From Flavihumibacter soli (GTDB lineage: Bacteria > Bacteroidota > Bacteroidia > Sphingobacteriales > Sphingobacteriaceae), in contig NZ_JAAFZB010000092.1 of NCBI RefSeq assembly GCF_010692725.1, forward strand, positions 248,001 to 312,000: a stretch of DNA of 64,000 nucleotides. The letters are read 5' to 3'. The stretch's first letter is position 1. Every line of letters starts with the position of its first letter. The position numbers and the translations under genes were made by a program. A model generated the notes under the pieces. The model was not told the DNA's origin. It worked only from the letters and a program-made list of their open reading frames with translations, and ran no database searches. Of the stretch, positions 61,208-64,000 are shown piece by piece.

Positions 61208-61587
61208 TTTGTAAACTTTATTCCTTAAAGTTAAAAAATTCGTAAAAAGATTCAAAAGAAGGACCTGGTTTAAATGTTTCCAGGTGTCAAGATAGAAGTT
61301 GGGAGGCTGCGGTCAGGTAGGGGTCTTCCAGTGGTTAGGCCACCAAATTGGTGGCCTGACTTTAACCTGAGTACTTCCTGACCTAACCGAGTTTCTGCGT
61401 TAGGCGGGCTGACGTGTAAACTTGAAGCTTTGTGCGTCTATTTAAGTTCAGTGCTGGGAAACAGTTTGTGCACCGCGACCGGGCCGAACGCAAAGCCGAA
61501 GCCGTCGGCTGCAATTTTTGAGTATGTCCCGACAAGGGCTAAGTCAGACTTGGTAAAAAATGAGTATCTTAAAATCAAAGCTTTGCC
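61208..61587. other. Intergenic region with long hairpin and GTTAGGC motifs
   Basis: A near-perfect palindrome AGGCCACCAA-a-TTGGTGGCCT lies at 61337-61357. Motifs GTTAGGC (61334 and 61399) and ACCTAAC (61381) surround it; they look like integron core sites but do not form an attC of normal size. Other overlapping inverted repeats (GGTCAGG/CCTGACC) are present. No gene supported. Confidence 0.5.
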
Positions 61588-62334: not shown

Positions 62335-62504
62335 TTTCAGATGCAAACTGCAGCCTACCGACTTGTTTCTCCTTAATATGTTTAGAAAAATCTTTTTCTC
62401 CACCGCTGCAGCCCAAAAACCAGCCTGATCTATACCGTGTCAGCGTACGAACCTTGAAGACAACCTTCCTTTTATGATTTGGAATTGCAGACCTTTAAAA
62501 ATAT

Positions 62505-62618
62505 ATTTAAAAAATATACGGCGTAAATATTAATGCGATTTATGCGTATATCCCGCCATTTTAAGGTGGATATATGTATAAAATGGAGATTCATGCGCGT
62601 ATATAAACAAGTTAGCGG
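62505..62618. repeat. AT-rich hairpin region, possible attC site
   Basis: A complex inverted repeat (TATATCCC..GGATATA around a 7-base loop, outer arms ATATACGGCG / CGCGTATAT) ends at GTTAGCGG (62611-62618), which begins the next gene cassette. The 5' base reads ATTTAAA rather than the expected RYYYAAC, so this site is only suggestive. Confidence 0.4.
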
Positions 62619-62651
62619 TAATTGGTCGGGTGGTATATAGACTCAATCTAA

Positions 62652-63095
62652 ATGTGGAATAGACAAATCATATTTCTATCACTCGTTGCCTTGACGATCG
62701 GATGGGTTCTTTGGAGACGGGGAAAACATTTGCTTAAGAAATGGAAGAAGTCAGAAGCGATGGTGGTCAGTAACAAGTACACGCCAAACGAATTTGCATT
62801 ATTCGAATCAATTGACCCCGTGCGCGATGAGACGGGAACCTATCACGCAGTAGTTGAATTCAAGACTGACAAGGGCCAGACAATAAAAAAGCAACTGGAC
62901 ATTGGAGGAAACCCACCAAGGCCAGTTGGACAGAGAATGTTAGTAATCTATGATCCGAATAACCCGCTAAACTTTCTAACCGATCATCGGACAAAGCTTG
63001 AAATTATTCCAAGAATCTTGGTGGCACTTGGACTGATAGGACTGTTAGTGAGTATCGCGGACCTTTTTGGAGTAATTTCAATAATTTCCGACTAA
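62652..63095 (+). CDS. DUF3592 domain-containing membrane protein, cassette-borne
   Basis: A 147-residue protein: an N-terminal membrane helix (about residues 5-22), an extracytoplasmic DUF3592 strand region (AMVVSNKYTPNEFALFESID, GTYHAVVEFKTDKGQTIKKQ, PVGQRMLVIYDPNNPLNFL with the PxG...V.YdPxnP motif) and a C-terminal membrane helix (about 120-142). Function unknown. It fills the interval between GTTAGCGG at 62611 and the attC-like site at 63276, whose 5' base CCGCTAAC is the exact inverse complement of that opening, so it is most likely an integron cassette gene. Confidence 0.88.
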   Translation: MWNRQIIFLSLVALTIGWVLWRRGKHLLKKWKKSEAMVVSNKYTPNEFALFESIDPVRDETGTYHAVVEFKTDKGQTIKKQLDIGGNPPRPVGQRMLVIYDPNNPLNFLTDHRTKLEIIPRILVALGLIGLLVSIADLFGVISIISD

Positions 63096-63275
63096 CCAAA
63101 CTAGGCTATCACAAGCTATAAGTCATGGCGCACGGTTAGTATTTAATTTGATTGTTTGGGTGTGCCGCCACACTCAAGGATATGGACAAGGATGAAACCT
63201 ATGGATTAATGAGTTTTTAAATAGTACCTTCCTCAAACTATACATTTCCGACCTATTGGGTAAAAAGCAACTCCC

Positions 63276-63404
63276 GCTAACAACGGCTTAAAGCTATAGC
63301 GGTCACTGCTATTTGAAACCACCTGCTTTCTAACTATTTTAGTGCCAAACGCCTGGCGAAGTGCAACTAATTCGCTACAACTTAAAGCCATAAACGTTAT
63401 ATGC
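63276..63404. repeat. attC-like recombination site 1
   Basis: The 5' part CCGCTAACAACGGCTTAAAG and the 3' part AAAGCCATAAACGTTATATG fold together: GGCTT/AAAGCC and the outer TAAC/GTTA pair, and 14 of 17 positions of the main stem pair after the spacer. Size about 129 bases, within the known attC range. It separates the DUF3592 and DUF5412-like genes; the crossover triplet GTT lies at 63396-63398, three bases before the next start codon. Confidence 0.85.
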
Positions 63405-63811
63405 TAACTTACAAACGACTCATCTATGCATTTACCGCCTTCCTGCTAACATTGGTTTTAAGTAGCTGCTTTCAACTTTTTGATGCGGGGAAAAATACAA
63501 TCATAAAGTCGGCTTCTAATGACTCAAAAAACAAAAAAGCTGTATTGTTTTTAAAGTCAGGCAATGCAACCACAGGTGAGTCGCTACAGGTTTCTATATT
63601 AAACTACAATCAGGACTTAAACGAAACAGAAAATGGGAATGTATTAATTACAGGCTCTGACCATGGTAACTTAACTCTAGATACTGGTGCAGTAGAACTG
63701 ATCTGGTTATCCAAGGACTCATTGCTGATTAAATACAATAGAAGTTTGAGGACTTTTACTAAACTTAGTGGAGCAAACGACATAAAAATCAGATATCTAG
63801 AGGAGGACTAA
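63401..63811 (+). CDS. DUF5412-like lipoprotein, cassette-borne
   Basis: A 136-residue exported protein. LTLVLSSCFQL has a lipobox (SSC), and the mature part shows KAVLFLKSGNATTGESLQVS and the terminal NDIKIRYLEED, as in DUF5412-type proteins. Function unknown. Its ATG is embedded in the 3' end of attC 1 (GTTATATGC), so translation begins almost at the cassette boundary, a common trait of cassette genes. The next attC starts 14 bases after its stop. Confidence 0.87.
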   Translation: MLTYKRLIYAFTAFLLTLVLSSCFQLFDAGKNTIIKSASNDSKNKKAVLFLKSGNATTGESLQVSILNYNQDLNETENGNVLITGSDHGNLTLDTGAVELIWLSKDSLLIKYNRSLRTFTKLSGANDIKIRYLEED

Positions 63812-63824
63812 TAGAAAAGTCAGC

Positions 63825-63958
63825 ATATAACAAAGGCTTTGCAAAAATGGCGAGTGAAGTGGTTTAGGTTATTTTTCTGCTTTTAATTTAAGTTTGTGCT
63901 ATGCGACAATGAAGTGCTTTCTATTCGCCATCTTCGCAAAGCCCTAAACGTTACAGGG
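63825..63958. repeat. attC-like recombination site 2
   Basis: GCATATAACAAAGGCTTTGC on the left pairs with GCAAAGCCCTAAACGTTA on the right; of 19 core stem positions (GGCTTTGC...ATGGCGA) 17 match. The first 9 bases of the left arm (GCATATAAC, 63823-63831) are the exact inverse complement of GTTATATGC at the start of the same cassette. The 3' triplet GTT is at 63950-63952; the next cassette begins GTTACAGGGC and leaves the window. Confidence 0.88.
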
Positions 63959-64000
63959 CATTTTAAAACACGATAAAACAACAACATACGATACAAAAAA

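Follow-up and report, generated by a model that had tools for sequence, protein, structure and literature searches.

At the right edge of the window, by which we mean the whole 64,000-nucleotide stretch analysed (G000:C92:248001-312000), a leader and an attI-like site are followed by two gene cassettes and the start of a third, each cassette being closed by an attC-like site (Table 1). The array that begins here holds seven clear attC-like sites and a weak eighth, and extends about 5 kb past the window, with five of the clear sites and the weak one following the two in the window on the same contig. An Imm63-like immunity protein and a cupin protein are among the products of the array genes, most of which have no family. 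Upstream of the array, before the DUF3667 gene, a weak match to our covariance model of the site (R1, see below) is found at 61380-61509 (25.5 bits; E=0.049 genome-wide, 0.0027 in another R1 run), perhaps a relict attC of an older cassette.

Table 1. Coordinates of the leader, recombination sites, cassettes and genes within the window (a slash marks the junction)
Feature	Position	Strand	Remarks
Leader	62466-62610	+	Part recurs at two other cassette loci; inverted repeat TATATCC...GGATATA (62547-62574)
attI-like site, array entry point	62600-62614	+	TATATAAACAA/GTTA; 9 of 11 motif letters; coincides with cassette boundary 62611
Cassette 1	62611-63395	+	From GTTAGCGG (at 62611) to the G/TT junction of attC-like site 1; GTTAGCGG mirrors CCGCTAAC (63274-63281)
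Cassette 1 gene	62652-63095	+	147 aa, DUF3592-like membrane protein; PF12158 E=7e-5, just under Pfam cut-off
attC-like site 1	63274-63401	+	R1 match 112 bits, E=3.7e-23; seed of R1 model
Cassette 2	63396-63949	+	GTTATATGC (at 63396) mirrors GCATATAAC (63823-63831)
Cassette 2 gene	63401-63811	+	136 aa, probable lipoprotein; lipobox-like LSSC; without Pfam family
attC-like site 2	63824-63955	+	R1 match 128 bits, E=4.5e-27; seed of R1 model
Cassette 3 start	63950-64000	+	Gene (169 aa, Imm63-like) starts 1 base past the window; array continues to about C92:316900

Mirrored cassette borders and a common hairpin

The first bases of each cassette mirror the left arm of its own attC. Besides the two pairs in the window, this is seen past its edge for GTTACAGGGC with GCCCTATAAC, GTTAGCAGAA with TTCTGCTAAC, GTTAAGCGTA with TACGCCTAAC, GTTGTGTGC with GCACACAAC and GTTATAGCC with GGCTATAAC. 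The preliminary description of this DNA, whose coordinates and letters for both cassettes were all found correct on recheck, had considered such mirroring unlikely to arise by chance, and the numbers bear this out: when cassette starts were compared with the left arms of their own attC in 63 cassettes from many loci and genomes, mirror positions 5-10 agreed in 317 of 378 cases, against 146 ± 9 with permuted cassette starts, and none of 5000 permutations reached as high a value. Its suggestion that the two units belong to a cassette array is likewise supported by the further cassettes in the next 5 kb, which were detected by the covariance model built here.

This model, R1, rests on 10 aligned sites of the window's genome and comprises 130 positions with 17 pairs. 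RNAalifold, run on a plain MAFFT alignment in which the arms had slipped, predicted no pairs, and a structure set by hand was used instead and tested against controls with the partners slid by 1-3 columns. In the hand-set structure 83.5% of the cells pair, versus 25-45% in the controls, and both sides are altered in 8 of the 17 pairs; the sites have in common a hairpin of about 131 bp, kept by compensatory changes. Within the window's genome, R1 recognizes 12 strong sites at five places, namely C92 (seven), C93 (two), C94, C84 and C86. Ten of these are seeds of the model, while the sites on C86 and C84, as well as those of relatives, are independent of the seeds. No match at E<=0.01 was obtained in a control set of 16 non-Bacteroidota genomes, and in the class 1 integron regions examined R1 matches the attC of blaVEB and none of the sites of neighbouring cassettes; R1 is therefore taken to describe a subtype of attC. 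A scan against Rfam gave no match. The features that define an attC, that is, inverted R boxes, a hairpin with a central spacer and a junction at GTT, are all present.

In classical integrons attC is read as a folded bottom strand, and the same is likely, but not settled, for the attC-like site, the strand choice being an inference. When the sites of circular cassettes are folded with DNA parameters, stability is greater for the bottom strand in 57 of 62 (by a mean of 3.8 kcal/mol; p=7e-11), a preference that random pieces do not reproduce (21 of 62). At mirror position 11, moreover, an A is found in 83 of 88 cassette starts, opposite a C in 76 of 93 left arms, a combination that gives a C.A mismatch on the top strand and a G.T wobble on the bottom strand. 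This wobble and the stability of the circular form fit bottom-strand folding. The mismatch types in the stem of the inner arms, taken as a strand test, lend it no support, with 77 G.T and 33 A.C on the top strand. For single hairpins in their array context the energy z-scores were unremarkable, and only the circular form and the alignment were informative.

A linked recombinase and its attI-like site

A search of the window's genome (96 contigs) with the IntI profile TIGR02249 returned only XerC/D-like genes, which miss the IntI-specific part of the profile, together with one weak hit, and no IntI. A profile of the cassette-linked recombinase presented below gave no match at E<=1e-50 in the same genome, so that the absence of an integrase, remarked upon earlier for the window only, holds for all of its contigs. 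As to a recombinase remnant upstream of the genome's own leaders, the best tblastn match (E=0.009) lies inside the DUF3667 gene and was judged to be due to chance. Of 151 family genomes, a single one has a match above the IntI cut-off and 90 carry R1 sites, and it was the sub-threshold TIGR02249 matches adjoining R1 sites in many of these genomes that led to the linked recombinase family.

The linked recombinases have Phage_integrase and SAM-like domains, and most of them find their best NCBIfam match in NF040815 (XerA type). Against TIGR02249 they score 191-224 bits, under the curated cut-off of 265, compared with 346 bits for a true IntI (L145), and the member at locus L129 reaches 195 and 189 bits against XerC and XerD, where the cut-offs are 330 and 335. 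In its full-length model the recombinase resembles both the Vibrio integron integrase (2a3v) and XerA (5hxy). Measured from the K-box to HxxRH, the linked recombinases have 58-65 residues, versus 95-100 in IntI and 64-66 in XerC/D, and the IntI-specific patch III insert is absent both by length and by alignment. A published classification regards this insert as essential for integron function, and as not fully conserved in an integron-like group (PMC8138268). An IntI with patch III beside the array, as a classical integron would have, is thus missing from the window's genome and is not provided by the linked recombinases of its relatives. In most copies there are about 65 extra N-terminal residues, present as several repeats in some, with the pattern W(S/D)xxxKxWxxP. 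This domain may be HARP-like, on weak scores only: the HARP profile (PF07443) matches 4 of 26 recombinases, at best with E=6e-6, and in Foldseek the SMARCAL1 HARP domain (4o66) ranks second and third, but with E=0.44; in a VIA-align fold search the best row had Z 4.7 and no HARP chain was among those listed. Any HARP function is inferred.

In a tree of 111 recombinases the linked genes of Bacteroidota fall into one group (SH-aLRT 90, and 78 after thinning of the set), with the exception of one gene that lies beside a linked copy, and IntI forms a clade of its own (support 100). Since a common clade of IntI and the linked recombinases is not rejected (p-AU 0.24), a single origin of cassette recombination remains possible. 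With XerA, XerC and XerD (NF040815, TIGR02224 and TIGR02225) the linked recombinases share the core domains and the lack of the IntI insert; they differ in forming their own Bacteroidota clade, in the mostly present extra N-terminal domain and in being tied to cassette arrays.

The recombinase regions first collected (L129-L148) had mostly been chosen for nearby sites, and the linkage test was therefore redone with R1 on all 67 recombinase genes of the 151 family genomes (E<=1e-75), covering about 6 kb per side where the contig allowed. R1 sites lie within about 6 kb of 48 of the 67 genes; at 31 loci the array is downstream on the same strand and at 17 it is divergent, the layout of classical integrons. 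All 56 family genomes with the recombinase also carry sites (p=6e-18), and among 395 genomes of the phylum the recombinase occurs in 113, sites in 158 and both in 93 (p=1e-27), neither value being corrected for kinship; 74 and 94 of 171 genera are involved, and 65 of the 158 site-bearing genomes have no recombinase match. Two subgroups (L141-L143 and L313-L337), one of 357-360 aa with the N-terminal extension and the other of 279 aa without it, are divergent from the array, as in classical integrons. Many draft contigs stop within a cassette array or at its start (L280-L283, L302-L306, L311-L313), so short-read assemblies probably under-report such elements.

Between gene and array, 3' of the recombinase stop codon and mostly within 60-280 bases of it, lies the attI-like motif CATATATACAA/GTTA or a variant, which scores at least 9/11 in 20 of 37 regions behind the recombinase, where 0.05 would be expected from shuffled sequence. 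By analogy with this motif, the head of the array in the window qualifies as an attI. Its leader of about 140 bp has blastn matches at C93:293623-293733 (E=2e-13) and C84:20200-20234 (E=6e-4), both just upstream of a first cassette. As far as sequence can tell, then, the window carries the entry site of the linked-recombinase system without its recombinase. At L133 (1342-1760) a hairpin repeat and the attI-like segment (CGTATACGCAAGTTGCGTGTATTTACGAGTTA twice) are both present in tandem copies behind the recombinase, and at L229, L131, L134, L137 and L148 a hairpin with arms of about 10 bases stands between the recombinase stop codon and the attI-like site, just before the latter; it could serve the recombinase gene as a terminator or belong to the attI-like site.

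These data bear on whether the array is an ordinary CALIN, that is, a set of classical-integron cassettes whose IntI was lost or acts in trans, with the neighbouring Xer-type recombinases as mere bystanders. Taken alone, the window array satisfies the definition (at least two attC less than 4 kb apart and no IntI), and the preliminary description, which had raised this possibility, was right in that at least two attC-like sites are present without an integrase gene; beyond that, the array is not a bare attC cluster, because it begins at its own attI-like site, one belonging to a non-IntI system. The attC layout of the sites and the presence of blaVEB with an R1-type attC in class 1 integrons would agree with a CALIN, as would the relative G029, which has two true IntI genes (L145 3256-4212 and L146 4551-5504). 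However, the 10-kb regions around these two genes contain no R1-type site, a true IntI is far too rare in the family when set against the sites, and the latter are strictly linked and oriented to a non-IntI recombinase, which the attI-like motif also adjoins. We consider an ordinary CALIN unlikely, if still worth keeping in mind. G029 additionally carries a linked non-IntI recombinase with its array.

It might also be argued that the recombinase does no more than resolve or invert the DNA of a plasmid or ICE that hosts it, and that gene and cassettes gather at the same hotspots, some recombinase copies being on plasmids and contigs often ending near arrays; yet a hotspot leaves unexplained why all of the sites (105 of 105) point away from the gene and why the first cassette has a common attI-like junction, and we give this reading very little weight. 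Hardly any more can be said for movement of the cassettes by the host XerC/XerD, as with pdif modules, slightly the less credible of the two. The linked recombinases are indeed Xer-like and the window's genome has XerC/D-like genes, but hairpins of attC layout and such length are not short dif-like sites, the linked recombinases form their own clade, and XerC/D control loci are unlinked to sites (0 of 12); a thirteenth control, L348, showed two weak R1 matches, and its genome has a recombinase-linked array about 13 kb away from this locus. Finally, a repeat family or terminator hairpins lying between genes by chance, for which the similar-sized hairpins at array ends could speak, is refuted by the permutation test of the mirror rule, a rule that, as no repeat would, couples every site with the beginning of the gene unit it belongs to, and by exact cassette borders common to different contexts, and deserves virtually no credence.

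Resistance genes as cassettes

When plasmids were searched by tblastn with the recombinase, truncated copies of it came to light immediately upstream of two resistance genes, tet(X3) in Acinetobacter and blaVEB-3 in Klebsiella and Aeromonas. On plasmids of Empedobacter falsenii and Bacteroides fragilis, tet(X) forms a cassette whose R1-type attC is complete (E=4e-9 and 2e-8), the Empedobacter cassette starting with GTTATGTGCC and its attC having GGCACATAAC as left arm; on pHH1107 the attC following tet(X3) is truncated. The latter plasmid connects the system to the xerD-tet(X3)-res-orf1-ISVsa3 module of Acinetobacter plasmids (PMC7494873), since its TnpF is a truncated member of the linked recombinases, and the TnpF fragment lies directly upstream of an attI-like leader and tet(X3). 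That report, in contrast, gives the gene order only and mentions neither cassettes nor integrons, and the direct alignment in this 2020 study on the origin of tet(X) gave no shared context (PMC7494873). Judging from the sequences, the shared part of the tet(X) contexts is the cassette itself.

The attC of blaVEB is 133 bp long and of R1 type (E=1e-5). Four settings have the left border of the blaVEB cassette at the identical G of GTTAGCGG; what precedes it there is the cmlA5 attC, the attI1 sequence of a class 1 integron, a Bacteroidota-type attI (Aliarcobacter) or the recombinase (Klebsiella). In the three settings compared, the left flanks are 18-33% identical, whereas the right 900 bases are at least 99.7% identical, and within GTTA the G at which blaVEB joins the Bacteroidota-type leader is also the one used at attI1. 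From these identical borders we conclude that one and the same cassette, cut at the same point, is present in class 1 integrons and in the linked-recombinase system. Part of the pattern can be put down to IntI working in trans, since IntI1 moves blaVEB cassettes as well.

A proposed integron-like gene-capture system in Bacteroidota

The array, its boundaries, the hairpin, the attI-like motif, the linkage with its orientation and the shared cassettes are what the sequences themselves offer, and on them rests our proposal, which we hold with considerable confidence, that an integron-like gene-capture system with a non-IntI recombinase is widespread in Bacteroidota and that the window array belongs to it. 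A Xer-type, non-IntI tyrosine recombinase would excise cassettes as circles at attC-like hairpins, probably used as the folded bottom strand, and would insert them within GTTA at the attI-like site beside its own gene. Both the catalysis and the insertion point are inferred. In the window's genome, attI-like sites and cassettes remain at several places and no recombinase gene is found, and for this reason we suppose that its arrays were built by a recombinase since lost, or fed by one acting in trans; the loss, too, is an inference.

The proposed system would work like an integron and, by its recombinase, is not a classical one, with recombination activity inferred rather than shown. It has in common with the classical integron (IntI, attI, attC; TIGR02249) promoter-poor, one-gene cassettes in one orientation, attC-like hairpins with RYYYAAC/GTTRRRY ends and a junction at GTT, an attI-like entry site beside a tyrosine recombinase gene, a bottom strand that folds best, and the blaVEB cassette, which both systems use. 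It differs in that the linked recombinase is without patch III, often has the N-terminal HARP-like domain and is mostly co-oriented with the array, in that the R-box pairing of R1-type sites reaches about 12 bases with a fixed wobble, in its own attI-like consensus, and in that the remaining attC sites in the class 1 arrays examined are not recognized by R1. We also lean, with less assurance, towards the broader view of a second integron lineage, Bacteroidota-wide, in which recombinases lacking patch III would recombine folded attC hairpins, perhaps with the HARP-like domain reading the hairpin, and which would be the source of the tet(X) and blaVEB cassettes in Proteobacteria. In the open-access literature, to which our search was restricted, we found neither these cassettes described nor tet(X) recognized as one; the system is apparently undescribed, and priority cannot be claimed, since most subscription papers and all bioRxiv preprints were outside the search.

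Integrons have been reported to be rare in Bacteroidota, the complete one in Salinibacter ruber being the find within Bacteroidetes proper in one survey (PMC9024848), a rarity with which the sites in 158 of 395 genomes of the phylum contrast; integron tools based on IntI would list such loci as CALINs at best. If the linked recombinase does move these sites, cassette capture can do without the IntI insert, one of the rules of integron biology can be put to the test, and a hidden gene-exchange network is exposed. In cassette form, tet(X) and blaVEB are able to move among plasmids, class 1 integrons and Bacteroidota platforms, which provides a concrete route by which a large gene-capture system may feed genes into pathogens.
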